Position numbers and translations under genes: made by a program
Part shown: piece by piece, positions 7,038-21,149 of the stretch
Layout: each line of letters opens with the position of its first letter
How positions within the stretch are numbered: position 1 is the stretch's first letter
From: Umezawaea endophytica
Lineage (GTDB): Bacteria; Actinomycetota; Actinomycetes; Mycobacteriales; Pseudonocardiaceae
DNA: 64,000 nucleotides
Assembly (NCBI RefSeq): GCF_025061645.1
Contig: NZ_JANYMP010000004.1
Location: forward strand, 365,117-429,116
Direction of reading: 5' to 3'
The notes under the pieces: generated by a model
What the model was told of the DNA's origin: nothing
The model's database searches: none
Seen by the model: the letters and a program-made list of their open reading frames with translations, nothing else

Positions 7038-7064
7038 AGACCTGCCGCTCTCAACGGCAGGTCT
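7038..7064. terminator. Bidirectional terminator between SRPBCC and integrase genes
   Basis: A perfect 10-bp stem (AGACCTGCCG / CGGCAGGTCT) with a 7-nt loop lies between the converging genes. Its right arm overlaps the integrase stop codon. Confidence 0.65.
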
Positions 7065-8490
7065 ACCTACGTCCATGCAGGTTTGCCGACGTTTGTTCCA
7101 TCGCTGTTCCGTTGTCTCCGAACAGGAACGTCTCTACGGTCTCCGCTGCGGCATCCTGACGGGCGCGCCGCACGTGCGTGTAGAGATCCTGCGTGATGGC
7201 TGTGCCGGAGTGGCCCAACTGGACACTCACGAGCTTGATGTCCAGTCCGGCCTCAAACCCGAGCGTCGCCGCCGTGTGCCGACCGTCGTGGAGTCGGATC
7301 ACCGGCAGGCTGTGCTTGGCAGCCAACCGCATAAAGGTCCGAGTGACCGTAGTCGGGGGAGTGGGGAAGCCGTCCGGCGCAGCGAAGACCCAGTCGAGTT
7401 CGGGATTGCTGGGCCCTCTCCACGCAACCCCGGCAGCCAGGCGCTCCTGTCGCTGCCGGAGCTTGACCTTGCGGAGAGCGTCGAGCGTGCCCCTGTCGAG
7501 GGAGATCGTTCGCTTGCTCGACTCGGTCTTCGGCTTACCTAGAGCGATCCCGCGCTTGGGACCAGCGAAGCGCATGGTGCGCTTGATCTCGACCTGCCCG
7601 CGCTCAAGGTCGATGTCTGCCCACTGAAGACCACACGCCTCACCACGTCGTGGACCACGGAGCAGCACCAACCGGAACAGTGCGCCAAGTCGGTGATCAA
7701 CCGTCGCCGTCACAAACTTCACGACCTGCTCTGGTGCCCACACTCGTGCCGTGTCCGGCTTGGGCTTGTTCGGCATCTCGATCTCATCGCGTGGGTTGAA
7801 CGTCAGCAGCCGTCGACGGACCGCCGCGTTGAGCGCCATCGCGAGCACACCAACGATCTGCCGCTGAGTCTCAGCGCCGACGATCTGCTGCCAGTGCCGC
7901 TTGTCCAGGGGGTCGCGAGGTACCGGTTTGCCAGCCTCGATCGCCTCCTGGATCACCCGGTTGCGCCGCTCGAACCAGTCGAGCACCCCGACGATGTGAG
8001 AGCCGCTGAGGCGGTCTAGAGGCATCTCTCCCAGGTGGGGCTTCCACACGAGTTCGATCCGGTCTCGGTACGACTCCACTGTGGACTCCGAGGCACGTCG
8101 CTTGGTGGTCAACCACTCGTCCAGCCACTGGCCGAGCGTCATCGACGGCGCGATCGGGTCGAGCCCCGCGCCGTACTTCTGGCGGACCTCATCAACGGAC
8201 GGCAGCGTCCCGCCTCGCTTTGAGCGCTCGATGATCGTGGACGCGATGCGTCGTTGGATGCGGTCATCACCGGCCGCGACCGCGATCAGCTCGCGAACGT
8301 GCTCCAGGACGGCCGTGGCGTCGTTCTGCGTGGCGAACCCTCCGCGCTTCACCTGGACGTCGTCCCGGTCGATCGTGTCCAAGCGGATGGCGTAGTACCA
8401 CGTCCGATGGTTACGAGCGCTGGGTCGTGTGCACTCTTCCTTCTTGCCCGGGCAGTCGCACCACCACGACACCGAACCGCGTGATCGCAT
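7063..8490 (-). CDS. Site-specific tyrosine recombinase (phage-type integrase)
   Basis: This 475-residue protein has an N-terminal arm-binding region with a short Cys/His-containing start (CDCPGKKEEC), a SAM-like core-binding domain (about 140-220) and a C-terminal catalytic domain. The catalytic set is visible: Arg in LLRGPRRGEACGLQW, HDGRH (HxxR), LGHSG (second His) and Tyr in ITQDLYTHV. It is transcribed toward attL and catalyses integration and excision at the SRPBCC gene. The ATG at 8490 opens the frame directly downstream of an AT-rich regulatory region. Confidence 0.95.
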   Translation of the reverse strand: MRSRGSVSWWCDCPGKKEECTRPSARNHRTWYYAIRLDTIDRDDVQVKRGGFATQNDATAVLEHVRELIAVAAGDDRIQRRIASTIIERSKRGGTLPSVDEVRQKYGAGLDPIAPSMTLGQWLDEWLTTKRRASESTVESYRDRIELVWKPHLGEMPLDRLSGSHIVGVLDWFERRNRVIQEAIEAGKPVPRDPLDKRHWQQIVGAETQRQIVGVLAMALNAAVRRRLLTFNPRDEIEMPNKPKPDTARVWAPEQVVKFVTATVDHRLGALFRLVLLRGPRRGEACGLQWADIDLERGQVEIKRTMRFAGPKRGIALGKPKTESSKRTISLDRGTLDALRKVKLRQRQERLAAGVAWRGPSNPELDWVFAAPDGFPTPPTTVTRTFMRLAAKHSLPVIRLHDGRHTAATLGFEAGLDIKLVSVQLGHSGTAITQDLYTHVRRARQDAAAETVETFLFGDNGTAMEQTSANLHGRR

Positions 8491-8667
8491 TAATTCATCC
8501 CGTCACTCTGGAGAATCGGAGACATTGAAATGATTCTAACCAGGAATGACGACCTGAATATTTTGTTCACATACGTCCACCTTCATCCATCCTCATTGAC
8601 CTTCATTCATGAACGTTCTTTCGACGTCGCAGGGTAATCGACCGCAAGCGTTGTGTCACCCGCCGTG

Positions 8668-8683
8668 GCTGTCGCGCGACAGC
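8668..8683. promoter_or_regulatory. Palindromic operator candidate
   Basis: The perfect 16-bp palindrome GCTGTCGCGCGACAGC lies just upstream of the TATAGT element. It is a likely repressor site for the rightward promoter; the binding protein is unknown. Confidence 0.45.
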
Positions 8684-8777
8684 AGGGCAACCTGTATAGT
8701 TGATACCAACGGAGCAAGTAGCAGTCCCGCGCACGGTCCAGGTTATCTATCCACCCACTACCGCACGGCAGTACCGC

Positions 8778-8830
8778 AAGAACCCAGGAGAGCAAGGCGC
8801 AAGATTCAAGTGCCGCCCCTGGGTTCTTTT
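8778..8830 (+). terminator. Leader hairpin with U-tract, probable attenuator
   Basis: An 11-bp perfect stem (AAGAACCCAGG / CCTGGGTTCTT) with a 29-nt loop is followed by T residues. It lies between the promoter region and the first gene at 8862, so readthrough must be regulated. Confidence 0.6.
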
Positions 8831-8861
8831 GCGTGTATGGACTTCCTTCATGGAGGTTAGG

Positions 8862-9053
8862 GTGGAGATAAAGATTAAGGGTGGGCCGACCGAGCTCAAC
8901 CAGGCGCGAGCGCGCATTGCCTACTCGGTCTCCTTCAAGAACGACGAAGAGGTTGCAAAAGCGCGTCGCGACTACAAGCGACTGCGCGCAAACGTGATCA
9001 TCGCCGCTGGCCAGCAGATGCTCGCTGAGGTCGACAGTGAGGACGAGTCGTGA
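8862..9053 (+). CDS. Small hypothetical element protein (63 residues)
   Basis: The sequence is MEIKIKGGPTELNQARARIAYSVSFKNDEE..., with basic central helices and an acidic end (DSEDES). GTG 8862 is preceded by a perfect GGAGG (8852-8856) with 5-nt spacing, which decides the start over ATG 8850. It overlaps the next gene by GTGA. No known domain is recognised. It is the first gene of the rightward replication operon and may be an early regulator. Confidence 0.65.
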   Translation: MEIKIKGGPTELNQARARIAYSVSFKNDEEVAKARRDYKRLRANVIIAAGQQMLAEVDSEDES

Positions 9054-9307
9054 GCCCTCGCAGGAAGAACCCCCGTCGCGTATGGACGCCGGACGAAGTA
9101 CGCGAACTAGCTGCGCAAGGGACATGGACGACCGTGGCCGTCGCGGGGGAAATCTTCGGATGGTGCCCGTCAGCAGCAAACCACGCTGTCCACCGTGGTG
9201 ACTTTCCGGTCCACGTCGAAAAGTTGAGCGGGCGACGGTGGGTTGTGTCGACCGCCGACATCGTACGTGTGCTGAAACTGGATACCGCTGAGGCTGAAGC
9301 CTCGTGA
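9050..9307 (+). CDS. Small DNA-binding protein, excisionase/MerR-like helix-turn-helix
   Basis: This 85-residue basic protein reads VWTPDEVRELAAQGTWTTVAVAGEIFGWCPSAANHAVHRGDFPVHVEKLSGRRWVVSTADIVRVL. The order helix-turn-helix, short beta wing with GRRWVVSTADI is that of excisionase-type helix-turn-helix proteins, which read a position and bend att DNA. It starts at GTG 9050, overlapping the previous stop. It sits between integrase and replication genes, the usual xis position in integrative actinomycete elements. It could instead be a replication regulator. Confidence 0.65.
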   Translation: MSPRRKNPRRVWTPDEVRELAAQGTWTTVAVAGEIFGWCPSAANHAVHRGDFPVHVEKLSGRRWVVSTADIVRVLKLDTAEAEAS

Positions 9308-9358
9308 TCGGTTGATTCGCAGTACAGGAAAGCAGTGTCCTTAGCGGGTTAAATGGTT

Positions 9359-9390
9359 GATGGCCCGGAGTCGGTGCACTCCGGGCCATC
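9359..9390 (+). terminator. Hairpin upstream of the Prim-Pol gene
   Basis: A perfect 12-bp stem (GATGGCCCGGAG / CTCCGGGCCATC) with an 8-nt loop lies 19 bp before the primase start. It is either an actinomycete-type terminator or an RNA control element for replication genes. Confidence 0.6.
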
Positions 9391-9409
9391 GGAAAGTGAA
9401 CGATCAGCT

Positions 9410-10420
9410 ATGAACGATTTTACAACGTCAAAGCCGCTCGACAACGACATGAGAGTGCAACTGCTCGCACGCTACTGCGAGCTTGGTTGGCGGATCTTTC
9501 CGTGCGCCTGGCTAGCGGAAGATGGGACTTGCAGTTGCCCAAAGGGAAGTGATTGCGACGACCGAGGTCGACACGCAATCGTAAAATGGCAGCACGGTGC
9601 GGAAGTTCGCGAGGGTGAAAACGACTTCAATGTGAGGGCGACTAGTGATTTTGAGCAGGTCGCCCGATGGCACCAGAAGTGGCCTCGTGCCAACTGGGGT
9701 TGGTCGCTTGATGATCATTTCGTTGTGGACATCGATAAGCGCCACGGCGGCATGGAGACACTTGCGCTCCTGGATGAGAACGATCCCGATTTCTTGATTC
9801 CCACCCTGGTCCAGGAGACGCCTGGTGGTGGACGGCACTTCGTATATCACCAGCCGTTGGAGGACGTGAACGATCCGCTTGCCGGGAAGGTGAAGACCCT
9901 CAGTCAGGGCAGGCTTCAGAACTTGCCTGGGTTCGAGATCAAGGGAAGGCGAAGTGACGGTGAACCTGGGTCCATTGTATACATCCCTCCGTCAGTAGGG
10001 CGACGCTGGCAAGGAGACCTCGAACGTGTTGACTACGCGTCCGGATACCTCCTTCAGCGGATCTACAGGGCGAAGCAGCCAGGTAACTACGGTGCAGGGA
10101 CGGGAGGCTCTGAGGAGGAATTCGACTGGGGTCTGGCTCTCACGCCAGGTGGTGTTCTCAATAACCAAGACGACACGCTGTACCGCGCGAGCCGGTCACT
10201 GCGCGCCCTGGACGTTCCAGACCGTCTAGCGATTCCGCTACTCCGGACCGTCGTCTCGTTCTTCACGAACACGGATGCATCGGACCCGTGGGAGTTGGAT
10301 AAAGCCAACGAGAAGTGGGAACGCGCAAAGAACGAAGTGACGGCAGGCAAGTCATCCGTTGAACTCACTGAGGTCCAACTCACCCTGGTCGAGGGGTTCC
10401 TGAAGAAGAGGTACTCCTAG
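9410..10420 (+). CDS. Bifunctional DNA primase/polymerase (Prim-Pol, archaeo-eukaryotic primase family)
   Basis: This 336-residue protein has the Prim-Pol domain at about 10-200. It shows WPRANWGWSL, the metal-binding D107-I-D109 in VVDIDKRHGG, and GGGRHFVY with H143 as the nucleotide-binding His. A CSCPKGSDCDDRGRH loop near the start may bind zinc, as in related plasmid and phage enzymes. It would prime, and perhaps extend, DNA synthesis of the element. ATG 9410 was chosen because the earlier in-frame start lies in the 9359 hairpin. It is directly followed by the RepA-like ATPase (TAGTG junction). Confidence 0.9.
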   Translation: MNDFTTSKPLDNDMRVQLLARYCELGWRIFPCAWLAEDGTCSCPKGSDCDDRGRHAIVKWQHGAEVREGENDFNVRATSDFEQVARWHQKWPRANWGWSLDDHFVVDIDKRHGGMETLALLDENDPDFLIPTLVQETPGGGRHFVYHQPLEDVNDPLAGKVKTLSQGRLQNLPGFEIKGRRSDGEPGSIVYIPPSVGRRWQGDLERVDYASGYLLQRIYRAKQPGNYGAGTGGSEEEFDWGLALTPGGVLNNQDDTLYRASRSLRALDVPDRLAIPLLRTVVSFFTNTDASDPWELDKANEKWERAKNEVTAGKSSVELTEVQLTLVEGFLKKRYS

Positions 10421-11712
10421 TGGACGAGCAGAAGCCCGGCACCTTCACAGTGTCAACCCCTTTCGGAGACGTGCAGCTTGACGTAAGAGCAGTCACGTCG
10501 GGCACTGCGGCGATGCTTACGCGTGACGCTTCCACGCAGTTGATGAATGAAACCAAGGCTCTGGCCGAAGTTAAGGATTTCAAGAGTAGGCTTGACACCG
10601 GGATTTTCAACTCGGTCGAGGTCGATCAGCTTCGTAGCGATGACTGCTTGATCAAGGGCCTCATGTATATGCCCGGTATCACGCTGAATCACTCCGACCC
10701 AGGCGTTGGCAAATCTTTCACTGCGCTCGACCTGGCATTCCATGTTGCTCTTGGCCGCGCGACTTGGTGTGGCTTCCGCATCAAGCGACGCGTTCGAGTT
10801 CTCTACATCTACTCCGAGGGCGGGTCGCGACTCTGGAAGCGTCGCGACGCCTGGCTTACTCGGAACGCGGCCGATTCCACTGAGGCTGCGGAACTGGCTG
10901 AATGGATGCACTTTTATCCTCGGTCAGTTCCTCTCACTGGGAGCGAGTCGATCGTGGATGCTCTCCTTGAGCGGATTAAGAACGAGAAGTATGGGCTGAT
11001 TATCTTCGACACTTGGGCAACATCGACCACCGGAGCAGACGAGAACTCGGCCGGAGCAATGGGTGTCGCGCTGGAACGTCTCGGACGCATCCGAGACGAG
11101 GCTGAGGCCGCCATCTTGGTCATCCATCACGATAACAAGGGAGGTGGGTATCGAGGCTCGACGTCACTGGATGGTTACGTCGACACGCGTTTGCACACGA
11201 CGCGTGAAGGCAGCGCAGCGGATCGGAAAATCAAGATCACAATCGAGAAGCAGCGAGACGATGCGTCGGGGATAGCTAGGAAGGGGCATCTCGACATCGT
11301 GTCTCTCGGTGTCGACGAGGATGGCGACCCCATTACGTCGGTGGTGTTCGTATACGGGGAGCCTGCGACATCGGAGGAGTCACCCACTCCAGCAGAGAAG
11401 CGCAAAGTCTTCGATATGCAGGCAGTGGCCGAGTCAATCTGGCTGTACATCCAGGCCACAGCTAATGACCCTGACGACGATGCCTGGTCGTCTTCGGACA
11501 TTGCACGTAAGCCTCATACCAGCCTGGTCGGTACGCAGGCCCAGCGGAAGAAGGCCATCGAGCGCATGAAAGCAGACAAGGTGCTCTACCTCAAGAAGTG
11601 CAGGAAGACGCGGGAGAATGGACGTGCGCTGCCGTTTGAACGACTTGTCCCTTGCGTGGACGCTGAGGGTCGGTTTGCCCAGTTGTCGAAGCTGCTCGAA
11701 AGCGTCGACTGA
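10420..11712 (+). CDS. RepA-like AAA ATPase (AAA_25), replicative helicase/initiator of the element
   Basis: This 430-residue protein carries Walker A HSDPGVGKS (K98), Walker B GLIIFDTW (D197) and the RecA-fold segment AAILVIHHDNKGGGYRGSTSLDGYVD. This is the RepA/AAA_25 family found next to Prim-Pol genes in plasmids, phages and satellites. The C-terminal 100 residues look like a winged-helix DNA-binding part (SSDIARKPHTSLVGTQAQRKKAIERMKADKVL). The GTG start at 10420 shares a base with the primase stop, so translation is coupled. It probably acts on the iteron array directly downstream. Confidence 0.88.
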   Translation: MDEQKPGTFTVSTPFGDVQLDVRAVTSGTAAMLTRDASTQLMNETKALAEVKDFKSRLDTGIFNSVEVDQLRSDDCLIKGLMYMPGITLNHSDPGVGKSFTALDLAFHVALGRATWCGFRIKRRVRVLYIYSEGGSRLWKRRDAWLTRNAADSTEAAELAEWMHFYPRSVPLTGSESIVDALLERIKNEKYGLIIFDTWATSTTGADENSAGAMGVALERLGRIRDEAEAAILVIHHDNKGGGYRGSTSLDGYVDTRLHTTREGSAADRKIKITIEKQRDDASGIARKGHLDIVSLGVDEDGDPITSVVFVYGEPATSEESPTPAEKRKVFDMQAVAESIWLYIQATANDPDDDAWSSSDIARKPHTSLVGTQAQRKKAIERMKADKVLYLKKCRKTRENGRALPFERLVPCVDAEGRFAQLSKLLESVD

Positions 11713-11719
11713 CCGTCGA

Positions 11720-11802
11720 CCTAGTTGATCTCCAACAAGGTTCAAACAAGGTTGATTCAACCGTGTTTGGAACCGTGTTAGAGATATTGGAGATCAACTA
11801 GG
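11720..11802. repeat. 16-bp inverted repeat framing the first iterons
   Basis: CCTAGTTGATCTCCAA (11720-11735) recurs exactly inverted at 11787-11802. It encloses four copies of the AACAMGGTT 9-mer and lies just after the RepA-like stop. Confidence 0.75.
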
Positions 11803-11944
11803 TTGGCCCTGGAAAGGTTCTGAAGTCGACAAACAGTCGTGTTAGCCCTAGAAGGGTTGCTAACACGGTTCAATCGGTCGGTCAGCCAGTCGGCGAACCT
11901 TGTTCGACGGCTGGCTGGCTATAGAACAAGGTTCAAACAAGGTT
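11734..11944. repeat. Iteron array, candidate replication origin of the element
   Basis: Eight copies of the 9-mer AACA(A/C)GGTT are present. Plus orientation: 11734, 11745, 11862, 11925 and 11936. Inverted (AACC(T/G)TGTT): 11759, 11771 and 11896. Pairs are spaced 11-12 bp, about one helical turn. Variants AACTAGGTT occur nearby. The position right after the Prim-Pol and RepA genes suggests an origin bound by the initiator. Confidence 0.7.
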
Positions 11945-12265
11945 CTCTAACTAGGTTGAGCAGAGATGGGCAATATTGAAAGCAGCACTCAAATCTCTGG
12001 GCATTTGAACTTTTTCAAGTCGCGTGAGTGAGATGCCAAATGGACGTGCTCCGAGTAGTCAAAACAGGCGCTCACCCTCCCCCAGGTGGCGCTCCGCCTT
12101 TTACCGTATTAAAGGTAGACCGTACAAAATCACACTTCGCTCAATCCTCTGGGTATCGACATCGTCTGCAACGACATTCCCAACTTGTTCCGTTTGCTCG
12201 GAAAACTGCTGGTCAAAGGATTATTCCTAAACAGTTAGTTCAGGACCATTTGAAGGGATGATCCC
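11945..12265. other. Non-coding AT-richer stretch after the iterons
   Basis: Two overlapping frames of about 70 codons (12024-12261) lack codon bias and ribosome sites, so I see no gene here. The stretch could be the unwinding part of the origin, an untranslated RNA, or the promoter region of the next gene. Confidence 0.4.
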
Positions 12266-13159
12266 GTGGCACCACGTCCCAATGCCATCCCGCCCATCAA
12301 GTGCAGCGCACATGGACGAACAACCAAGAAGCCCTGTGGCAAGCACGCCATTCCCGGCACCCTGGTCTGTGAGATCCACGGTGGCGCGGCACCACAAGTG
12401 AAGGACAAGGCAATGATGCGCCTGGGACTCGCCGAGCTGATGAAGTCGGACCCTCGTCCAGTGTGGGAGGTCGTGCTTGATCACGTGCACGCCCTGGACG
12501 CCATCGCTCGTGAGGCCCGCGTTGACCTACGTGAGGGCGAAGACGTTTCAGCAGAACAACTTGACCGCATCGTGGACAGCTCGAAGGCAGCACTCACGGC
12601 AGCGAAACTGGCCATCGACACGCGCTCCTACGAGATGATGGCCGAACAGACCCGGCGGAACGTGGAGCTTGAGGGCAAGGTCGTCGCCGAAGCCATCGGC
12701 CGTGTTCTCGATGTCCTACTGAACGACCTAAGAGGCGGTGTCCACTACTTGCAGGGAACCCGCACCTGGGCGTTCGAGAGCGCGCACGCCGTACTCCTCC
12801 ACCTGGACGCGAACGAATCCGCGGTTGACTTGGAGCTACCGCCCTCGCCACTGGCCGGGTTCACGCTCGTCTCCCCGGAGCGCCTGGAGTTGCTGGCCGC
12901 TCAGACCTCCTCGACGGCCGACGACAGCGCTAGCCGTAGTCGACAACCCGTTTCGGATACCAGCACGCGAGAGGATGACTCGGACCCAGAAGGGGACGGT
13001 CCGGCGCCAACTTCCGGAGCAGAGTCGACACCGGAACCGCTGGAGGCGGAACTGGTGGAGGAGACGCCAACCCCTGGACCACGACGGAGCTGGTCACCAC
13101 GTGGAATGCCCAGTGCTTGGAGGCAGGGCGGCAGCCCATTCAGCCAGGCCATCGGTTGA
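12266..13159 (+). CDS. Phage-type zinc-finger protein, possible small terminase-like DNA-binding protein
   Basis: This 297-residue protein starts at GTG 12266. The N-terminus has a Cys/His cluster (KCSAHGRTTKKPCGKHAIPGTLVCEIHGG) followed by PQVKDKAMMRLGLAEL. That layout is common in actinophage and actinomycete mobile-element proteins and may be related to small terminase subunits. The middle (60-210) is helical. The last 80 residues are Pro/Glu/Ser-rich and probably disordered. If it is a terminase-like packaging specificity protein, it would support a satellite lifestyle. The family link is from memory of sequence style, not proven. Confidence 0.55.
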   Translation: MAPRPNAIPPIKCSAHGRTTKKPCGKHAIPGTLVCEIHGGAAPQVKDKAMMRLGLAELMKSDPRPVWEVVLDHVHALDAIAREARVDLREGEDVSAEQLDRIVDSSKAALTAAKLAIDTRSYEMMAEQTRRNVELEGKVVAEAIGRVLDVLLNDLRGGVHYLQGTRTWAFESAHAVLLHLDANESAVDLELPPSPLAGFTLVSPERLELLAAQTSSTADDSASRSRQPVSDTSTREDDSDPEGDGPAPTSGAESTPEPLEAELVEETPTPGPRRSWSPRGMPSAWRQGGSPFSQAIG

Positions 13160-13180: not shown

Positions 13181-14023
13181 TCAGTCGGCAGGCAGCTCGG
13201 CAGCGACGCGCGTCAGCAGCTCCCGTGCGTCGTTGCCCTCGGCTGCCACCGACCACAAGCGATCGGCCAACTTCCCATACGTAGCAACCTCTTCCGGGTC
13301 GGACACCCGCACCTCAGCCGTCAGGAACTCGATCATCACGAGCTGATCCACGATCCAGAAGCCGTGCACCAGTGGATAGGGCAGCCGTGTCCGAGCCGGA
13401 AGGATGCCGAACCGCACGTTGGGCAGGCCGATCGTGGACAGCAACCTGTGGATCTGGCTGGTCATCACGTCCGGTGGCGCGATCGGATGAAGCAACGCCG
13501 ACTCGGTCATCAGGGTCTCGATCGTCCGGCCCGGTTCGTAGAGCACTTGCTGACGACGCATCCGAGAACGCACCGCGTCCGGTATGTCCTGTCCACCACC
13601 GTGGAGACCGGCCGACGCGAGCAACACATGCCGGGCGTACTCGGGAGTCTGCAACAACCCCGGCACGACACCGACGTCCACGGCACGAATCACCGTGGCT
13701 GCCTGCTCCACCTGGACGGCTTCCTCTTGCCGTGCCCGATGGCCGAGCCGTACCTGCGCCTTCCAGGTCACGTACGCCTCACGGATCGCGGCCAGATCCT
13801 CGCGCAACTCGGCCGCCACGATGTCACCTGGCGTCGTGACCGCGAGCCACGCCTCCAGATCCTCTGGGCTGGCCGTCTGCTTCGCAGTCTCCAGCTTGCT
13901 CAACTTCGGCGCGTTCCAGCCGATCTCGGCCGCAAGCTGCTTCGCGGTCAGGCCCGCTTGCTCACGGATGATCCGCAGACGCTCGCCGAACTCGGCTCGA
14001 CGCTGCTCAAAGCTGGTGGCCAC
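13181..14023 (-). CDS. XRE-family helix-turn-helix regulator with DUF5753 domain (WhiJ-type)
   Basis: This 280-residue protein has an N-terminal XRE helix-turn-helix (RLRIIREQAGLTAKQLAAEIGWNAPKLSKLETAKQTAS) and a C-terminal DUF5753 ligand-sensing-like domain (VVPGLLQTPEYARHVL... and HGFWIVDQLVMIEFLTAEVRVSDPEEVATYGKLADRLWSVA). This architecture is found almost only in actinomycetes, where WhiJ-like members pair with small partner genes and affect development. Here it is the last gene of a minus-strand set of three with the DUF6879 protein. It may act as the element's repressor. Confidence 0.88.
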   Translation of the reverse strand: MATSFEQRRAEFGERLRIIREQAGLTAKQLAAEIGWNAPKLSKLETAKQTASPEDLEAWLAVTTPGDIVAAELREDLAAIREAYVTWKAQVRLGHRARQEEAVQVEQAATVIRAVDVGVVPGLLQTPEYARHVLLASAGLHGGGQDIPDAVRSRMRRQQVLYEPGRTIETLMTESALLHPIAPPDVMTSQIHRLLSTIGLPNVRFGILPARTRLPYPLVHGFWIVDQLVMIEFLTAEVRVSDPEEVATYGKLADRLWSVAAEGNDARELLTRVAAELPAD

Positions 14024-14033
14024 GCGGTCCTCG

Positions 14034-14555
14034 TCATCGGCTGGTCAGGTAGTCACTGAACGGGGTCGCATCCTTCCACGCGCGGTCGCGAATTTCGCGA
14101 AACTTGGCCACGGCCGGAGCGTCGGTGATCACCTCGGCGTGGTGGAACCCATCCTCAGCGAAGTGCATGACCGCTACACGCCGGTCGTCGAAGATCCAGA
14201 AGTCGTGGTCGGGTAGCTCCAGCTCTCGCGCCCTCCCCTGGGCAATCACCCTGATGTCCTCGCCCGCTGCCACGTTGCGTGGTGTCGCCGCCAGCTCGAA
14301 CCGCAGGTAGTCCGTCAACGGCTCGGTCAACACTCGCACTCGGGAGAACGTCCGCCCGGCATCGACCAACGCGCGTACTCCTGTCAACCAGTCGTCCATG
14401 TACGACAGGTCCGGCTCGTCTCCTGCGAGGAACTGCCGCAGCGCCTCCTGCTCCACCGGTTCGCGGTAGACCCCCTGGGCCTCCCAGCGCCAGGCCGATA
14501 CCCGGAAGTCGCGCAGCAGTCGAGACCAGCCGTCGCCGGTGACCTGCTCCGTCAT
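14034..14555 (-). CDS. DUF6879 family protein
   Basis: This 173-residue soluble protein contains WSRLLRDFRVSAWRWEAQGVYREPVEQEALRQFLAG and DFWIFDDRRVAVMHFAEDGFHHAEVI. These segments are typical of the DUF6879 proteins encoded beside DUF5753-type regulators in actinomycetes. Biochemical function is unknown. Its ATG at 14555 overlaps the stop of the upstream small gene by one base, and it lies 10 bp before the XRE gene, so the three are one unit. A TTTCGCGAAA palindrome lies inside its 3' end. Confidence 0.8.
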   Translation of the reverse strand: MTEQVTGDGWSRLLRDFRVSAWRWEAQGVYREPVEQEALRQFLAGDEPDLSYMDDWLTGVRALVDAGRTFSRVRVLTEPLTDYLRFELAATPRNVAAGEDIRVIAQGRARELELPDHDFWIFDDRRVAVMHFAEDGFHHAEVITDAPAVAKFREIRDRAWKDATPFSDYLTSR

Positions 14556-14764
14556 CAGCCAGCCTCGGCAGGTGCGAAACCCAGCAGAGCCTTGGGAATC
14601 TCCACCACGGTCTCGTGATCAGGCAGGCCACGCTCGCGCATGACCGTCAGCGCTTCCTCGTCCGTCACGATCGACCCCTGGACCAGGTACGTTCCCCGGT
14701 CGGTCTCGTACAGGTTCGGGCAACTGCCGGTCGTGGACGTGCTCCCCAAGAACGTGATCTTCAC
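14555..14764 (-). CDS. Small hypothetical partner protein (69 residues)
   Basis: The sequence is MKITFLGSTSTTGSCPNLYETDRGTYLVQGSIVTDEEALTVMRERGLPDHETVVEIPKALLGFAPAEAG. GTG 14764 is preceded by GAGAGGA. Such short acidic proteins recur upstream of DUF6879 and XRE/DUF5753 genes in actinomycetes and may be the third part of a conserved regulatory set. The Cys15 context GSCPNLYET is characteristic. The exact role is unknown. Confidence 0.75.
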   Translation of the reverse strand: MKITFLGSTSTTGSCPNLYETDRGTYLVQGSIVTDEEALTVMRERGLPDHETVVEIPKALLGFAPAEAG

Positions 14765-14857
14765 GTGCGGTCCTCTCGTTGTGGTCGTGGCGTTGCGCCC
14801 AAGTTGCATCCAACACGACGAAGTTCACCACACTGGTACCCCAATCGAGTGGTATGA

Positions 14858-15067
14858 GTGTCGAATTTCGCGAAATTCTTGAGAGTTGGGCGCGATCGAG
14901 GCAAGCTGCCCTCGATCGACCATCCAGCCCAGTCAGCTCGACCCGAGGAGGTCCAGTGGTTGCCGTTCTGGCACTTCGGGTTCAGACGCCCCACCCCAGA
15001 CAGCATCGGCTCACCGGACCTACCTGGGCGGCGAACCGGGTTCAGGCCCAGCGAAGCCGGTGCGTGA
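14858..15067 (+). CDS. Possible small hypothetical protein
   Basis: This 69-residue frame starts at GTG 14858, and the palindrome covers its first codons. The second half (PEEVQWLPFWHFGFRRPTPDS) has good third-position G/C, but no Shine-Dalgarno sequence or family is recognised. It is placed between the regulator set and the membrane protein gene. It may be a real gene with a different start, or chance. Confidence 0.35.
   Translation: MSNFAKFLRVGRDRGKLPSIDHPAQSARPEEVQWLPFWHFGFRRPTPDSIGSPDLPGRRTGFRPSEAGA
14863..14878. promoter_or_regulatory. Palindromic operator candidate GAATTTCGCGAAATTC
   Basis: This perfect 16-bp palindrome lies about 100 bp upstream of the minus-strand regulator set and at the start of a possible plus-strand gene. 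Its core TTTCGCGAAA recurs near 14093 inside the DUF6879 gene. It is a likely binding site for the XRE regulator. Confidence 0.5.
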
Positions 15068-15134
15068 CGGGGTCGTTTTCTTCCCCGACGTGCGGCCCCG
15101 TCACACCTAATCGACGCCCACCCAGGTCGACCTG

Positions 15135-15446
15135 ATGACCGGGTTCTGGGTCACCGCGGCCTTGCTTCTGCTTGCCGTCGCGTTGCTGTGCCCCAACTAC
15201 AACCGCCACCGGGTCCGTCGTCAGACCGTGCGCCAGGTCAGGGCGCGACTGACCACACGGGCTCCGGACCCGGTGGCGGATCCCACCGCGTCGATCACGG
15301 TCGCGGAGCTGCGCCGCCGATGCGACGCCGACAACCTTCCTCGGTACCCGTCTTCGTCTTCGTCCCCAACTCCGGGCAGCGTGGCCAGCGACCCCGACCT
15401 GTCCACGCTGCCCGGTTCCACTCCCGACACCGGATGTGCCGCATGA
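15135..15446 (+). CDS. Small single-span membrane protein of the element
   Basis: This 103-residue protein has an N-terminal membrane segment (FWVTAALLLLAVALLCP) and a basic cytoplasmic stretch (NRHRVRRQTVRQVRARL). A Ser/Pro-rich C-terminal half follows. It overlaps the next gene by ATGA. No family is recognised. It could be a membrane-docked regulator or exclusion-type protein of the element. Confidence 0.6.
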   Translation: MTGFWVTAALLLLAVALLCPNYNRHRVRRQTVRQVRARLTTRAPDPVADPTASITVAELRRRCDADNLPRYPSSSSSPTPGSVASDPDLSTLPGSTPDTGCAA

Positions 15447-15763
15447 GCACCATCGAAGACGCAGCGGCACTCCAGGCCTTCCCGGAGATCCAGTACCTGC
15501 TGATCATCCGTGATGGCGGCTGGCAGTTCCTGCCGCAAGAGCAAGGCCGCGCCCAACTGGACGGATTCCGCGCCTGGCCCGAGGGCTGGCGTGACGGCAT
15601 CCGCATCCGGTCCGCTACTGACGTCCTAGGCATCCGTACGAACCCCAACCACGAGCTGGTGTGGGAACTGACCGGCACCCTGGTCGACGTCATCAGCGAG
15701 CTGCTGGCGCTGCCTCCTCCCGGCGCACCCCGGCTGCTGTGGGGCAGTGGCCTGACTGGCTGA
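15443..15763 (+). CDS. Hypothetical protein (106 residues)
   Basis: This soluble protein reads MSTIEDAAALQAFPEIQYLLIIRDGGWQFLPQEQGRAQLDGFRAWPEGWRDGIRIRSATDVLGIRTNPNHELVWELTGTLVDVISELLALPPP. The ATG overlaps the previous stop and coding bias is good. The pattern of conserved aromatic residues resembles proteins found beside DUF6879/XRE sets, but I cannot name a family. It is followed by a strong terminator. Confidence 0.6.
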   Translation: MSTIEDAAALQAFPEIQYLLIIRDGGWQFLPQEQGRAQLDGFRAWPEGWRDGIRIRSATDVLGIRTNPNHELVWELTGTLVDVISELLALPPPGAPRLLWGSGLTG

Positions 15764-15764
15764 A

Positions 15765-15808
15765 CGTCAAGCGCGCCGCTACCCCACCGGGCAACGACGC
15801 GCTTGACG
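15765..15808. terminator. Bidirectional terminator between convergent element genes
   Basis: An 11-bp perfect stem (CGTCAAGCGCG / CGCGCTTGACG) with a 22-nt loop starts 2 bp after the 15763 stop and ends 3 bp before the stop of the opposing gene. Confidence 0.75.
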
Positions 15809-15810
15809 AT

Positions 15811-16107: not shown

Positions 16108-16408
16108 CGGTCGTCTCCTGATGCATTTTGGAGAGTGAGGACCCGCGAGCTTTACCCCAGTTCACTGAAAACCCCAGCTCGATGTCGTTCTCATTGTGGA
16201 TGACTTCAGTCTCCAGGTGCAGCGCCACAATGTGCTGAGAAAATTCGCCGCCTCCCATGAACTTCGTCGCGGCTTTAATCAAGGCCTTGTTCAAGTGTTC
16301 CATCAGGTCCATAGCGGTTTTACCTTCCGGCAAGGGCTCGAACATTCTCAAGTTCACTGCACCCTTTGCGTGTGTGACGAATTTGAACGGAAGCTCGTAT
16401 TTCTCCAT
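16091..16408 (-). CDS. Hypothetical protein (105 residues)
   Basis: The sequence is MEKYELPFKFVTHAKGAVNLRMFEPLPEGKTAMDLMEHLNKALIKAATKFMGGGEFSQHIVALHLETEVIHNENDIELGFSVNWGKARGSSLSKMHQE. ATG 16408 is preceded by GGGAGAG, deciding the start over an upstream ATG. Composition and the lower-GC codons differ from chromosomal neighbours. No family is recognised. It is cotranscribed with the following 98-residue gene. Confidence 0.6.
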   Translation of the reverse strand: MEKYELPFKFVTHAKGAVNLRMFEPLPEGKTAMDLMEHLNKALIKAATKFMGGGEFSQHIVALHLETEVIHNENDIELGFSVNWGKARGSSLSKMHQETTDGEDY

Positions 16409-16677
16409 CTTCTCTCCCTGCTCAATGTTGACTGGGGCGACACGAAGAGAAGCAGGTCGGCTGACTAGACGCAAGCGCGCTGTTTTCGCATTTCAGATGA
16501 GGGTGAACATGCGCAGACGTGCCTGAACGAAGATGGACGACACGGTGGTCAGGATCACTTCCGGTCGCACTCGGCTAGCTGGCTAATCTCTCGCCATAAC
16601 GGGATATACAATCGCCCCCTCGCCTGTTTCGATTTGTTGCAGTAACGGCAACAAACCAAAACATGGGAGGTGGGTAC
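16409..16677. promoter_or_regulatory. Divergent regulatory region inside the element
   Basis: This region separates a leftward pair from the rightward late-like genes. It holds an AT-rich TATACAAT -10-like sequence (near 16605) and an 8-bp inverted repeat, TTTGTTGC / GCAACAAA (16633-16640 and 16648-16655), just before the RHH gene. Confidence 0.5.
16633..16655. promoter_or_regulatory. Inverted repeat upstream of the RHH gene, autoregulatory operator candidate
   Basis: TTTGTTGC, 7 nt, GCAACAAA. It sits 23 bp before the RHH protein start, where such proteins usually bind to control their own operon. Confidence 0.45.
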
Positions 16678-16869
16678 GTGGCTAGCGTTCCGACTGAATC
16701 GTTTGCCTTTCGGATCGACACTTCCGTCATGGATGAGGTTCGCCGTATCGCAGTTCACTCAGGCGTATCGAACGCAGCCGTCGTGAATATCTGCCTACGC
16801 GCCGGACTTAAGGCGCATGGCCACGCAATGCTGGCTATGACCTCGTTGGATCGGGGTGGTCGAGGATGA
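16678..16869 (+). CDS. Ribbon-helix-helix (Arc/MetJ-type) DNA-binding protein
   Basis: This 63-residue protein reads MASVPTESFAFRIDTSVMDEVRRIAVHSGVSNAAVVNICLRAGLKAHG. It has a short beta strand (SFAFRID), then two helices with VSNAAVVNICLRAGL, the usual ribbon-helix-helix layout. GTG 16678 is preceded by GGAGGTG at 16666. Its stop overlaps the next ATG (ATGA). It probably regulates the rightward gene block from the adjacent inverted repeat. Confidence 0.65.
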   Translation: MASVPTESFAFRIDTSVMDEVRRIAVHSGVSNAAVVNICLRAGLKAHGHAMLAMTSLDRGGRG

Positions 16870-17174
16870 AGCCACGGCAGAACCCCGCTACATCACCTCC
16901 TGACGTCTACCGCGAGAACGACTGTGTCCAGGGGTCGTTTCAACTGGACTACAGCCCTCGTAGCCGTGACAGTTGGACTGACGTGCAGTTCGAGGCCAAG
17001 TCGGTCGAGTGGCGTGGTGACTGGGTTATCTTCCGCCGTCCGACCTTGATGTCCACCCTGCGGGGTTACGGCTTTCCTGTTCAATCGACGGTCACGACCT
17101 TTGATGGCTTTTACCGTGTGCCTGCTCGACGGATCTCGCACATCACGTATAACACTTGCGCCGTGGCTGCATAA
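16866..17174 (+). CDS. Hypothetical element protein (102 residues)
   Basis: This basic, aromatic-rich protein (VQFEAKSVEWRGDWVIFRRPTLMSTLRGYGFPVQSTVTTFDGFYRVPARRISHITY) starts at an ATG overlapping the RHH stop. No catalytic motif is visible. Its beta-rich look and position between RHH and the prohead-protease-like gene suggest a phage-derived accessory protein. Confidence 0.55.
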   Translation: MKPRQNPATSPPDVYRENDCVQGSFQLDYSPRSRDSWTDVQFEAKSVEWRGDWVIFRRPTLMSTLRGYGFPVQSTVTTFDGFYRVPARRISHITYNTCAVAA

Positions 17175-17192
17175 GCCAGCGCAACGCAGACT

Positions 17193-17259
17193 GGGATGGT
17201 CGCTGATTCATCTCGTTCTCCCCACCTCCTCTTGAGCGAGGTGGATTGGCGATCATCCC
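17193..17259. terminator. Nested hairpin structure before the prohead-protease-like gene
   Basis: GGGATGGTCGC (17193-17203) pairs with GCGATCATCCC (17249-17259) with one mismatch. It encloses a smaller 7-bp hairpin, CCACCTC / GAGGTGG. It is a possible terminator or leader structure 25 bp before the next gene. Confidence 0.45.
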
Positions 17260-17284
17260 ACCTAGCTGAAACGAGGTCCGTCCG

Positions 17285-18550
17285 ATGACTCTCCGAAACC
17301 ACGATGACCCTCGGGCTCACCGTCTCTTTGCTCGCGCCGATCGCGCTGTCCGGAGCACTCCGGAGTATCTCGCGCGCAGCATTCGGAACTGGCTTGATGA
17401 CCCACAGCTCGATTCTTACGCGTTGACTGCTTCTATGAACGGCAGGCAAGCTCATGCCGCCGAGATTATGCGCGTGTTTCCGGCTGCGCGTGAGGTTCTC
17501 GGCGAGTCGGTAGTAGTAGCCGCCGTGGGGTCGAGTGCACCTGTGCCCAACTGCTGCCGCTGGGGTGGTGCACAGATGCATGCCCGCGTCCATAAGCTTC
17601 GCATCCCACAGTTCTCCGTAGGCTTGATGCCACTCTTGGGACGTCCGTGCAATCTTTGCAAAGACAAGTGGATGAAAGAATTGCGCACCAAGGTTGACAC
17701 TGGCCGCGCACTAGTAGCGTCGGCCAATTCCTCGGCCAAGCAACTTACTCTGATCGCAGGGGCGTCTCAGGTGATGTTGCCAAGGACTGGGAGCGCCTGG
17801 TGTGAGCGCGTAGCGCGTGCAGCACCCCTAGAGCCGCCCCTAGCATGGTTCTCTGATCCGCAGCTCACGGGTCCGGTGAAGGTTCGCGTTACGGATGAGG
17901 GCCGCGTTTATGGGCACATCGCCGCGTGGAAATCGGTTCACGCCGGAATCCCCGGTGTCACGCCTCCTAGGTCTAGAGATGGAAGATACTCGAAGTTTCA
18001 CCGCCACCCGGTAAGGACGGCTAGCGGCAGTCTCGTAAGAACCGGACCACTAGCCACTGGCGGGCACTTCAGCACTAGGTCCAATCTGTCGATCAGTCAG
18101 GTGTCCGAGCATTACGACGATCCTCGCTACGTGGTCGCCGACGTTGTGGCCGGGGAAGACAAACACGGTATTTGGGTATCGGGCGCACTGCGTTATGGCG
18201 TTGAGCCCTTCCAGGTAATGCTGCTGGATCGCTACTCGATCAGTGGTGATTGGCGTGAGCAAGATCTGGTAGCCGCCTGCACAGTAAGCGTGCCAGGATT
18301 TCATTTGGACGCGGATGAACAGGTGCGCGCACTTGCGGCTTCTGGCAATCGTGTTAAGAGTTTCGCAACCGCCTGCTACCCACGGCGCGTTGAGCGAAAT
18401 GGAAAGCTGATTGCTGTGCTGGCGGCCGGAGTTCTGCCACCTCTTCCGAGTCCTTGTGACTGTGGCCCCTGCCTCAACGACGTATGTAGACTTGACAACG
18501 CGATGCGTGATCTCGAAAAGCAACGCGCACGAGTTGGGCGGAACCGATGA
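17285..18550 (+). CDS. Phage prohead protease/capsid-maturation-like protein
   Basis: In this 421-residue protein, about residues 200-350 match the style of actinophage capsid maturation proteins: DEGRVYGHIAAWKSVHAGIPGVTPPRS, LATGGHFSTRSNLSISQVSEHYDDPRYVVADVVAGEDKHGIWVSGALR, SGDWRE and VSVPGF. The N-terminal 200 residues carry Cys pairs (NCCRW, CNLCKDKW), and the C-terminus has CDCGPCLNDVC, suggesting bound zinc. No major capsid or portal gene is adjacent, so the enzyme may act on a helper phage capsid or be a remnant. Family assignment is from recognised motif order, not a search. Confidence 0.6.
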   Translation: MTLRNHDDPRAHRLFARADRAVRSTPEYLARSIRNWLDDPQLDSYALTASMNGRQAHAAEIMRVFPAAREVLGESVVVAAVGSSAPVPNCCRWGGAQMHARVHKLRIPQFSVGLMPLLGRPCNLCKDKWMKELRTKVDTGRALVASANSSAKQLTLIAGASQVMLPRTGSAWCERVARAAPLEPPLAWFSDPQLTGPVKVRVTDEGRVYGHIAAWKSVHAGIPGVTPPRSRDGRYSKFHRHPVRTASGSLVRTGPLATGGHFSTRSNLSISQVSEHYDDPRYVVADVVAGEDKHGIWVSGALRYGVEPFQVMLLDRYSISGDWREQDLVAACTVSVPGFHLDADEQVRALAASGNRVKSFATACYPRRVERNGKLIAVLAAGVLPPLPSPCDCGPCLNDVCRLDNAMRDLEKQRARVGRNR

Positions 18551-18720
18551 CATTGCGCCGAAATCGTAGGGCCAACTTCAATACTCCATCGCGCTCTGAG
18601 GAGAAGTTGGGCCGTCTCCAGGTTTACCTGAATAAAGCGTGGAAGCGTGGCAGCCAAGTGTCACCGGAGCTCATTCAAGACAAGCGAAAGAGGCAGGCCG
18701 ATGACCGAGATTCGGAATGA
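18547..18720 (+). CDS. Small basic protein (57 residues)
   Basis: The sequence is MTLRRNRRANFNTPSRSEEKLGRLQVYLNKAWKRGSQVSPELIQDKRKRQADDRDSE. Its ATG overlaps the previous stop (ATGA), and its 3' end overlaps the next gene by 20 bp, so it lies within a tightly coupled block. It is strongly basic. No family is known; it is perhaps a DNA-binding or head accessory protein. Confidence 0.55.
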   Translation: MTLRRNRRANFNTPSRSEEKLGRLQVYLNKAWKRGSQVSPELIQDKRKRQADDRDSE

Positions 18721-19123
18721 GGTCGTGCTCGCGCTGGTCTCAGCCAGTGAGGCGGCAAAGCGTGAGCTTGGGACGGTTGTCGACGTCTACGAACCCACGC
18801 TCGACGAGCAACGCGCAGCCGCGAAGATGCTGATGGACGAGAGCGTGGAGGGGCTGGAAGACGCCGGAGTCATCAAGCAGCACTCGGTGCTGAATCTCCG
18901 ACGACCGCAGCTCGCTGCACTCGCTATGGCATATGCCGTGGCTGTTCAGTGGTGGATGCCTCGCGAATCCCAGCGCTCTCTGGGCGACATGCTTAAGATC
19001 ATTCCCGCTGAAGAGGCCCAGAACATCCGAACGATTCTTGAGTGGAGCGGCTTCATTCCCGCTGACACCACGACCGCTGAGTCTCTTTCTGACGAACCCG
19101 ACCAGTCGACGGATAGCGATTGA
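18701..19123 (+). CDS. Hypothetical phage-like protein (140 residues)
   Basis: This acidic helical protein reads MTEIRNEVVLALVSASEAAKRELGTVVDVYEPTLDEQRAAAKMLMDESVEGLEDAGVIKQHSVLNLRRPQLAALAMAYAVAVQWWMPRESQRSLGD.... ATG 18701 follows AAAGAGGCAGG. It resembles small head-tail or accessory proteins in actinophage structural operons in size and composition only. Function is not assigned. Confidence 0.6.
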   Translation: MTEIRNEVVLALVSASEAAKRELGTVVDVYEPTLDEQRAAAKMLMDESVEGLEDAGVIKQHSVLNLRRPQLAALAMAYAVAVQWWMPRESQRSLGDMLKIIPAEEAQNIRTILEWSGFIPADTTTAESLSDEPDQSTDSD

Positions 19124-19217
19124 CCGGTCGTCCGGTTTGATTGCTCGGTCGATGCACCAGCGGCGCTAGTGGATGTTTGAGCGCGGGTCGCCGACACTGA
19201 CAAGGAGAAGTGAAGAC

Positions 19218-19922
19218 ATGGCAGTTCCTCGCTCGGCCGATCTCACGCAGTTCATGTCTGGAGTAGACCCGTCCGAAGTCGGCTTCAGTCAGGGTTTCGT
19301 CGTGTCGTGGAACCCTGACACCGGCGAGAACGTCATCAAAACCCGTGGAGCAACGTTCAACAATGTCTCTGTCATGGACAGCTCGGACATTGTCACCATT
19401 AGGGCAGGCAGTATTGTCGGACTGCTGCGTTGGAAGAACTCGTATTTTGTACTTGGTTCGATCGTCGCCCCTGGTTCGGACACGGTGGAGGCGCGCAGCG
19501 CTATCAGCTTCAGCACCGGCATCACCCCCGGCCCTCTCAACCAGAGTCAGGGCACGGGTACAAGTTCGGGTTACGTCGAGAGCGGCAATGACGTCACGTT
19601 CACGACATACAGCGGTCGATTCCTGATTATGTTGACCGCGCAGGTCGATCTCTCGGGGGCGCGGAGCGCGGCGAGGTTCAGCTACGCGGCATATGCTGAC
19701 TTGGATGGAGCTAACATCGCAGCGTCCGATGCTCGGGCTGCGATGGTGCTCGACCCCGGTGCCGCGATGGGGATCCAACAGACGGTCGCCTACTCCAACA
19801 CTCACAACGTGGGTGGCTACGCGCACATCACGGTCAAACCGGCTTTCAAGCTCACGGCTGGTCCGGCGTTCGCGGCGGCCGCGATCTGGACCAACCGGTC
19901 CGTGATCGTTCACCCGTTCTGA
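19218..19922 (+). CDS. Phage minor tail/baseplate-like protein
   Basis: This 234-residue protein starts at ATG 19218 behind AAGGAGAAG. The N-terminal segment FSQGFVVSWNPDTGENVIKTRGATFNNVSVMDSSDIVTIRAGSIVGLLRWKNSYFVLGSIVAPGSD follows the pattern of actinophage minor tail proteins (WNPDTGEN, a nucleotide-free beta barrel, then LGxI). The C-terminal half is Gly/Ala-rich beta structure. It is the only tail-like gene in the element. It may decorate helper particles, or be left over from a prophage. Its stop overlaps the next ATG. Confidence 0.6.
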   Translation: MAVPRSADLTQFMSGVDPSEVGFSQGFVVSWNPDTGENVIKTRGATFNNVSVMDSSDIVTIRAGSIVGLLRWKNSYFVLGSIVAPGSDTVEARSAISFSTGITPGPLNQSQGTGTSSGYVESGNDVTFTTYSGRFLIMLTAQVDLSGARSAARFSYAAYADLDGANIAASDARAAMVLDPGAAMGIQQTVAYSNTHNVGGYAHITVKPAFKLTAGPAFAAAAIWTNRSVIVHPF

Positions 19923-20275
19923 TGGCGGACCCGATGAAGCGATTCGGGGTGACTTTTCCCGAGGTCATCCCGAGCGCCGTGATCAAGCCCGACCCGGAGC
20001 GTGATCGACGAGTCGTACGGCTTGTCACGCGGAAGGCACTGGACGCTGACGACTGCGCCGAGTTGTTGGCCATGCTCGGTCTCAACTCTCAGCCGGACCC
20101 TGAACCGCTGACGGGCACTGAGATGGACTCGACTGCCGATCGGGTAGCGATCAACCAACCAGCCGTTTCGACGTCCGGAAGGATGTCTGAGCAGCACCAG
20201 GGGGAGTCCGAGCATCAGCCGTCGACTGCTACCCCTGGACAGCCGGCAAACGCAGCACACCCGCACTCGGTGTGA
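19922..20275 (+). CDS. Hypothetical protein (117 residues)
   Basis: This protein (MADPMKRFGVTFPEVIPSAVIKPDPERDRRVVRLVTRKALDADDCAELLAMLGLNSQPDPEPL) has an ordered N-terminal 60 residues and a polar, Gln/Ser/Pro-rich tail. It is coupled to the tail-like gene by ATGA. No family is recognised; small proteins at this position in actinophages are often of unknown function. Confidence 0.55.
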   Translation: MADPMKRFGVTFPEVIPSAVIKPDPERDRRVVRLVTRKALDADDCAELLAMLGLNSQPDPEPLTGTEMDSTADRVAINQPAVSTSGRMSEQHQGESEHQPSTATPGQPANAAHPHSV

Positions 20276-20313
20276 CCGGTGCGGGTTGCTGTGGAACTAG
20301 GTTCGGCCGGTAA

Positions 20314-20499
20314 TCAGTCGTACAGCTCGACCTCGAACGTCACGCCTGCCGTGCTACCTCCCGTGGCGCTGATCAGCGTGCGGACTTCGTTCTCGGCATG
20401 ATTCGCATTCTCGGCCCAGGTGGTGAACTCGAAGGCGTACGGCCCGACGGTGATCGTGACGATGTAGCGGTCAGTGGTGACGTCGTGAGCGTTGGTCAT
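20314..20499 (-). CDS. Small hypothetical protein (61 residues)
   Basis: The sequence is MTNAHDVTTDRYIVTITVGPYAFEFTTWAENANHAENEVRTLISATGGSTAGVTFEVELYD, predicted to be beta-rich. ATG 20499 lies 8 nt after GGGGAG, chosen over an upstream GTG. It is cotranscribed with the larger gene upstream (21-bp gap). Function is unknown. Confidence 0.55.
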   Translation of the reverse strand: MTNAHDVTTDRYIVTITVGPYAFEFTTWAENANHAENEVRTLISATGGSTAGVTFEVELYD

Positions 20500-20520
20500 G
20501 ATCATCACTCCCCGGCGCGC

Positions 20521-21099
20521 TTACTTCGCGGAACCGTTGATCAAGGCGAGCGCGTCGGTGATCAGCTTGCGCGCCCCGGCGAGCGTCTTCTCTTCAAGCG
20601 CGGCAGTCAGTGCCTCGACCACCTTCGCGTTCTTGGCTACACGGCCAGGCTTCACGTGCTTGACCGGCTTGACCTCGCCGCTGTCGATTCGGTCCAGCAT
20701 TGCCGTGAGGGTGTCGACCTCGGTGGGGTGCGACTTGCTGTGCTCGGCGCGCCAGATGGCGGAAGCGGTCATCCCGGTCAGTTCCATCAGCACGGGACGG
20801 GTGAAACCGGCCGTCCGCGCACCCGCCAGGCGCTTTGCGATCTCCGCAGCAACAACCGGGTCGGTGTAGCGGTCCGACTTCTTCGGGGAGGTCTGGGAGA
20901 CCTTCTCGACCTCCTTGGAGACCTCCGCGTCGGCCGTCTGGGTAGTTGGCTTGGCGGCAACCGGCTCGGCCGACTGTGCTTCCACGGGGGCAGTCGCGTC
21001 CGGCTCGACAATCACGGGGTTCGTAGGCTTGGACACTGCCTTGCGGGTGGTCGGTGCCTTGGCCTTCGCGTCAGGCTTGGCGATCGTTGCGGCAGTCAT
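20521..21099 (-). CDS. Putative DNA-binding protein with Ala/Lys/Pro-rich N-terminal tail
   Basis: This 192-residue protein starts at ATG 21099, 7 nt after AGGAG. Residues 1-80 are low-complexity (Ala, Lys, Pro, Thr), like histone-type tails. The C-terminal part has a helix-turn-helix-like stretch (GFTRPVLMELTGMTASAIWRAEHSKSHPTEVDTLTAMLDRI). It is the rightmost leftward gene of the element. It could be a nucleoid-like protein or a regulator that controls the right end near attR. Confidence 0.6.
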   Translation of the reverse strand: MTAATIAKPDAKAKAPTTRKAVSKPTNPVIVEPDATAPVEAQSAEPVAAKPTTQTADAEVSKEVEKVSQTSPKKSDRYTDPVVAAEIAKRLAGARTAGFTRPVLMELTGMTASAIWRAEHSKSHPTEVDTLTAMLDRIDSGEVKPVKHVKPGRVAKNAKVVEALTAALEEKTLAGARKLITDALALINGSAK

Positions 21100-21129
21100 G
21101 ATGCTCTCCTGGGTCTCACTCTTGGTGGT

Positions 21130-21149
21130 CACGGGGATTACTCCCCGTG
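21130..21149. promoter_or_regulatory. Hairpin/operator at the right end of the element
   Basis: CACGGGGA, TTAC, TCCCCGTG forms a perfect 8-bp dyad. It lies in the leader of the leftward gene and 26 bp before a rightward ATG (21175). It may be an operator or terminator. Confidence 0.4.

Follow-up and report, generated by a model that had tools for sequence, protein, structure and literature searches.

A capsid-less integrative element of Umezawaea endophytica with phage protease-domain and tail-tip genes may be a helper-dependent phage satellite

We analysed a 64,000-nucleotide stretch of the Umezawaea endophytica genome (contig NZ_JANYMP010000004.1, positions 365,117 to 429,116; hereafter the window) and found that it harbors an integrated element with its own integration and replication genes, genes for a capsid-maturation-protease-domain protein, a tail-tip protein and a small-terminase (TerS)-like protein, but no recognised gene for a capsid, a large terminase subunit (TerL) or DNA transfer. 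The gene set is best explained, tentatively and with the odds still somewhat against it, by an integrative element that behaves as a phage satellite and depends on a helper; having no capsid, TerL or transfer gene of its own, the element would probably need such a helper phage for its mobilisation. A first-pass annotation, made from the letters of the window alone, had already proposed a satellite. The gene inventory, the replication module, the absences, the preserved protease site, the TerS-like protein and the packed late genes fit that proposal, whereas the failure to find a relative with the same set and an integrase-excisionase-Rep-HGG (int-xis-Rep-HGG) backbone common to FtsK-bearing elements do not.

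Insertion, replication module and absent genes

The GC content of the window drops to 60.7% between approximately 6.9 and 21.4 kb, while the flanks have 72-75%. A repeat search revealed that this island is bounded by two direct repeats (attL and attR) that are 96% identical over 77 bp and share an identical core of 47 bp (6948-6994 and 21340-21386). Two congeneric genomes, G399 and G400, have an uninterrupted SRPBCC target gene and an empty site, with the window's downstream gene close behind, which confirms site-specific insertion. The repeats and the empty sites thus define an element of about 14.4 kb, measured repeat to repeat, that has inserted site-specifically and restores the 3' end of the gene it entered. 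The host assembly comprises 11.0 Mb in 65 contigs. The island previously placed at 7063-21132 is real, but its true ends are the 77-bp repeats and the element is slightly larger. With regard to the two gene ends, the new SRPBCC C-terminus supplied by the element reads ENLPVS (7002-7022), and the original one, AGLPSTAGPA, is stranded at attR (21394-21426) in an 83-aa open reading frame (ORF) starting at 21175.

The left part of the element encodes a tyrosine integrase, a possible excisionase, a Prim-Pol and a RepA-like ATPase, all of which had been named in the first pass and proved to be present and open in Pfam and PHROGs analyses, with the excisionase match falling below the Pfam cutoff. The excisionase-like protein resembles a helix-turn-helix (HTH) gene adjoining int in an actinobacterial element of genome G909. 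The iteron cluster following repA is also genuine: counting both strands, 12 matches to an AACNNRGTT-type motif occur at 11734-11957, compared to 0.15 expected. Judging by its repeats, this region is likely the origin of replication, and the element is probably able to excise and replicate by itself. Sequence searches against PDB detected no match for RepA and one spurious weak match for Prim-Pol.

We searched the window with 25 query proteins at E<=0.01, using phage and prophage loci as the positive control. No match was detected in the window for portal, MuF, capsid, tape measure, major tail, head-tail adaptor, TerL, TerS, lysin or FtsK/Tra queries, although the same 25 queries found matches in the control loci, as many as 40 ORFs per query. 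PHROGs, Pfam and five capsid queries revealed no major capsid protein, and neither Pfam analysis of 20 window proteins (19 within the element) nor direct query revealed FtsK_SpoIIIE or any other transfer gene. The element therefore lacks the set expected of a complete phage (TerL, portal, capsid, tail, lysis). These results bear out what had been said of missing virion, lysis and transfer genes, and a conjugation gene, which by the first-pass annotation would have told against a satellite, did not emerge from Pfam or the FtsK/Tra queries. PADLOC detected no defence gene other than a weak mad1 HTH match, and Rfam gave no match.

Coding sequence occupies 84% of the element, and the remaining 16% includes the origin. 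The right-hand genes are free of internal stops and tightly packed: one gene starts within the protease stop (18547), the next inside its predecessor (18701), and another at the tail gene stop (19922). Such packed, intact late genes argue against a decaying remnant, although clean deletions could still have taken place.

Phage-type proteins of the element

Phage-family profiles were matched by the protease-domain, tail-tip and HGG proteins, among others. The protease domain (aa 176-356) matches PHROGs families with E values of 1e-33 to 1e-41, has relatives in 45 viral loci, and occurs in actinophages within capsid-maturation, MuF and portal fusion proteins; in some viral contigs (L016), reading of the translations placed a stand-alone domain directly upstream of a capsid-like gene. 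Every invariant residue of a 33-sequence alignment is kept in the window protein, H276 and S320 included. An AlphaFold2 model is confident over residues ~176-345, with predicted local distance difference test (pLDDT) scores around 90-98 in much of 170-340. The best solved-structure match of the domain is T4 gp21 (Z 6.2), followed by herpesvirus proteases/assemblins, and T4 gp21 and the herpesvirus proteases account for almost all of the 25 best-ranked structure matches. Matches in BFVD include proteins named capsid maturation protease. The modelled domain thus combines the two marks of a prohead protease, a herpesvirus/T4/HK97-type fold and a His-then-Ser order, and the prohead-protease-like protein of the first-pass annotation is upheld. 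Because the active-site residues are kept and the predicted fold matches those of T4 gp21 and the herpesvirus proteases, the protein likely has proteolytic activity. A Foldseek search of PDB with the full model returned only noise, since more than half of the model has pLDDT <70, and the domain was resolved by a second look with VIA-align; a sequence search against PDB gave no match. As a separate observation, the HYD motif is without its His in Pas7 of the Actinoplanes phage phiAsp2 (L108:3884-5326), and Pas7-type copies of the domain may be inactive in some phages.

The minor-tail-like protein also stood up to scrutiny. It is related to a tail-tip gene that follows the tape-measure gene in phages and prophages, and its top BFVD match is phiAsp2 Pas31. 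The structural model is of moderate quality (mean pLDDT 61), with a beta-rich C-terminus of low confidence; its oligonucleotide/oligosaccharide-binding (OB)-like N-terminal domain scores best (Z 9.5) with unrelated OB-type proteins, with P2 gpV and R2-pyocin spikes also listed. Phage-collection searches with this protein and with the 140-aa protein encoded upstream of it found no match.

In the zinc-finger phage-type protein noted earlier, a CCCH zinc finger with an HGG motif precedes a part that looks helical. The protein belongs to phrog_3678, a family without assigned function, and two of its phage relatives weakly match phrog_10899, a terminase small subunit family. In Microcystis phage Mae-JY09 and in contig L136, a relative immediately precedes TerL; in prophage L061 it is one gene from TerL, and in Montesquieu and the related contig L134 it lies 2.3 and 2.9 kb upstream of TerL, respectively. 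No relatives were found in plasmids. We call the protein TerS-like, rather than TerS.

Between the HGG gene and the rightward block lies a four-gene cassette (13181-15763) encoding the XRE-DUF5753 regulator, its DUF6879 partner and proteins of 84 and 106 aa. The cassette recurs with 45-63% identity at L067:13326-15654, beside a prophage of genome G252. We rejected it as a sign of a common element because the G252 copy is located between the prophage and chromosomal-looking genes, and XRE-DUF6879 pairs are common in actinobacteria.

Table 1. Features of the element and its target site (window coordinates)
Feature	Position	Strand	Basis or remark
Target gene, polyketide cyclase 2/SRPBCC	6582..7022	+	PF10604; last codons come from the element
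attL	6926..7002	+	77-bp direct repeat within 3' end of target gene
Tyrosine integrase	7063..8490	-	PF00589 E 2e-18; phrog_1 E 2e-62
Small ORF	8850..9053	+	ORF, no family match; overlaps excisionase-like gene
Excisionase/AlpA-like HTH protein	9050..9307	+	HTH_17 E 0.0025, below Pfam cutoff
Prim-Pol primase/polymerase	9353..10420	+	PF09250 E 7e-16
RepA-type AAA_25 helicase/ATPase	10420..11712	+	PF13481 E 4e-28; phrog_906 E 8e-40; start overlaps Prim-Pol stop
Iteron cluster, likely replication origin	11719..11958	unassigned	Motif matches; inverted and direct repeats
HGG zinc-finger protein, small-terminase-like	12266..13159	+	phrog_3678 E 3e-8
XRE-DUF5753 regulator	13181..14023	-	PF19054 E 8e-39
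DUF6879 partner protein	14034..14555	-	PF21806 E 3e-56
84-aa XRE-cassette protein	14555..14809	-	63% identity to gene of same cassette in G252
106-aa XRE-cassette protein	15443..15763	+	45% identity in G252
Small ribbon-helix-helix-like ORF, first of rightward block	16678..16869	+	Arc-like matches weak, E 0.2
Protein without family	16866..17174	+	ORF; start overlaps preceding stop; no Pfam/PHROGs match
Capsid-maturation-protease-domain protein (aa 176-356)	17285..18550	+	phrog_859/18402/29860
57-aa basic protein	18547..18720	+	ORF, no family; overlaps protease stop
140-aa protein, possible tail assembly chaperone	18701..19123	+	Phage_TAC_7 E 0.028, not significant
Tail-tip/minor tail protein, N-terminal OB-like domain	19218..19922	+	phrog_30991 E 4e-5
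Protein without family	19922..20275	+	ORF; start overlaps tail gene stop
Small ORF	20314..20508	-	ORF only
Ala-rich protein with weak HTH	20521..21132	-	HTH_31 E 0.07, not significant
attR	21318..21394	+	Displaced original 3' end of target gene; matches uninterrupted gene ends of G399/G400

A possible helper-dependent element and its rival explanations

By its sequence, the element integrates into the 3' end of the SRPBCC gene, restoring the reading frame of its target, and encodes functions of its own both for excision (Int and the Xis-like protein) and for replication (Prim-Pol and RepA, with the iterons). As a phage satellite, it would be kept quiet by the XRE-type switch until infection by a helper leads to excision and replication, whereupon the TerS-like protein could direct the large terminase of the helper towards element DNA. 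The protein with the prohead-protease domain might then act within the helper's procapsid or a hybrid one, and the tail-tip protein might join the tail of the helper or replace a part of it, with capsid, portal, TerL, tape measure and lysis functions presumably supplied by the helper.

Several observations weigh against this account. We know of no precedent among satellites for a protease without a capsid. No resident prophage or helper is evident in the host genome, as judged by two markers, the PF05065 capsid and the PF10145 tape measure, both without a match. Relative searches, which covered samples of 300-400 genomes, found a Prim-Pol relative in 0 of 296 other genomes of the family, an integrase relative likewise in 0 of 296, and RepA relatives that are only 29-37% identical in 14 other genomes of the class; with no close relatives found, the gene set may not be conserved within any lineage. 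No sampled genome has the same gene set, and viral-contig scans with Prim-Pol, RepA, the integrase and the 140-aa protein found no relatives. In Mimi and MO526, the stretches read have no annotated TerL near the HGG relatives, and such relatives also occur within elements bearing FtsK-type genes. Finally, in phiAsp2 Pas7 and in L061, the protease domain is preceded by an N-terminal S78-like-looking domain, and the N-terminus of the window protein has no recognisable counterpart.

The backbone makes a conjugative origin a live rival, since it is common to elements with FtsK-type or FtsK-like genes. The int-xis-Rep-HGG order is shared with elements of two actinobacterial genomes. That of G710 spans 19.4 kb between 61-bp tRNA-like repeats (L127:11780-13852, L113:1206-13605) and encodes int, a xis-like protein, DnaB/AAA_25, HGG, a tape measure (PhageMin_Tail E 2e-28; PHROG E 5e-39) and FtsK_SpoIIIE; it thus joins a conjugative-type backbone to a phage tail gene, and we recognised no capsid gene there. 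That of G909, a 23.8-kb region between 43-bp tRNA-like repeats (L126:6160-15620, L110:9311-16311), encodes int, a xis-like protein, Toprim/AAA_25, HGG, a 1505-aa tape measure (PHROG E 1e-100) and an FtsK-like translocase, again with no recognised capsid. The window element could be akin to the actinomycete integrative and conjugative elements (AICEs), one that lost or never had FtsK/Tra and carries phage genes as cargo that perhaps interferes with incoming phages or stems from prophage recombination; it would excise, replicate and be moved in trans by another conjugative element. Along with RepSA and RepAM, Prim-Pol is one of the replication modules of AICEs (PMC3218068), and the tape measures of G909 and G710 indicate that phage tail genes recur in such backbones. 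However, the window element has no detectable transfer gene, and its proteins are only 27-34% identical to those of G909 and G710 over long stretches. The shared order may be convergent because HGG proteins and AAA_25 helicases occur in phages as well. The G909 translocase has no PF01580 match, and three copies of the 43-bp repeat and two xis-like genes suggest that the G909 region may comprise two tandem elements. On balance, we regard an AICE-like origin as somewhat unlikely.

An unlikely explanation, too, is a cryptic prophage, that is, a temperate actinophage that lost its TerL-portal, capsid and tape-measure blocks and retained protease-like and tail-tip genes. The int-replication-TerS-protease-tail order is that of a siphophage map after collapse, relatives of both late proteins occur in a single phage (phiAsp2 Pas7 and Pas31) and in complete prophages, and remnant prophages are common in Actinobacteria (PMC10023795). 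Yet no truncated genes or pseudogene pieces were seen, there is little non-coding DNA, the late genes overlap start-to-stop with neighbors for which the searched loci offered no phage relative, and the protease active-site residues are kept. The first-pass annotation had held that relatives in complete prophages would mark the element as a deletion remnant; such relatives exist for the late genes, but they are only roughly 30-48% identical to their counterparts in complete phages, which gives no sign of a recent deletion.

Returning to the helper-dependent element, a more specific version of it strikes us as quite improbable: in a satellite strategy not described so far, a capsid-less element would supply its own prohead protease, TerS-like and tail-tip proteins to helper assembly, so controlling particle maturation and host adsorption, and would form with the G909 and G710 elements a broader actinobacterial int-xis-Rep-HGG group, each member retaining a head or tail gene of phages, or two.

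Comparison with known mobile elements

The closest described kind are the candidate phage-inducible chromosomal islands (PICIs) of Mycobacterium and phiRv1/phiRv2, small int-bearing elements with replication and selected virion genes that are proposed to be helper-mobilised (PMC10654092). The earlier suggestion that this gene set is not a described satellite type thus does not hold in its simple form, although those elements do carry a capsid. Candidate PICIs are defined by an integrase and a major capsid protein (PMC10654092); the window element has an integrase in an att-bounded island and lacks the capsid, but possesses a protease domain and a tail-tip gene. In a separate observation made by reading, RepA relatives in G199 (L115:9492-15379) and G207 (L120:5683-10402) adjoin HK97-capsid-like genes; L120 also carries a protease-like gene, and both loci resemble the phiRv and candidate PICI elements.

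With the PICIs and Staphylococcus aureus pathogenicity islands (SaPIs), the element shares int, a small HTH protein, a primase-helicase with downstream iterons, its own replication and a size of ~14 kb, and its TerS-like protein may correspond to their packaging-redirection gene; SaPIs have primase, Rep and iterons in the same arrangement. It differs in its protease and tail-tip genes and in having no recognised capsid-remodelling or interference genes, and its helper is hypothetical. In its predicted workings it is most like a PICI-type satellite, yet we do not class it as one. Capsid-forming PICIs bring their own head-morphogenesis genes, among them one for a head maturation protease (PMC10690885), and encode capsid, portal, connectors and terminase, none of which we recognised in the window element. 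The Mulch and Flayer satellites of Streptomyces phages are 14-17 kb long with actinobacterial hosts, unusually low GC and, in one, a tail fibre gene; they carry terminase, portal and capsid but no primase, whereas the window element is the reverse (PMC10690885). AICEs with Prim-Pol replication, such as the SLP1 type, share its tyrosine integrase, xis-like, Prim-Pol and Rep genes (PMC3218068), but the window element has no FtsK/SpoIIIE translocase and carries phage late genes. phiAsp2 and Rosebush-type mycobacteriophages, which contain relatives of the protease domain and, in phiAsp2, of the tail-tip protein, are complete phages and, unlike it, have the whole of the head and tail modules.

Phage satellites have been poorly tested in Actinobacteria (PMC10023795, PMC10654092). 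If our preferred explanation is true, a satellite with replication, TerS-like, prohead-protease and tail-tip genes but no capsid would widen the satellite gene repertoire, and the elements that combine the same backbone with tape-measure and FtsK-type genes raise the question of how parts are exchanged among conjugative elements, satellites and prophages.

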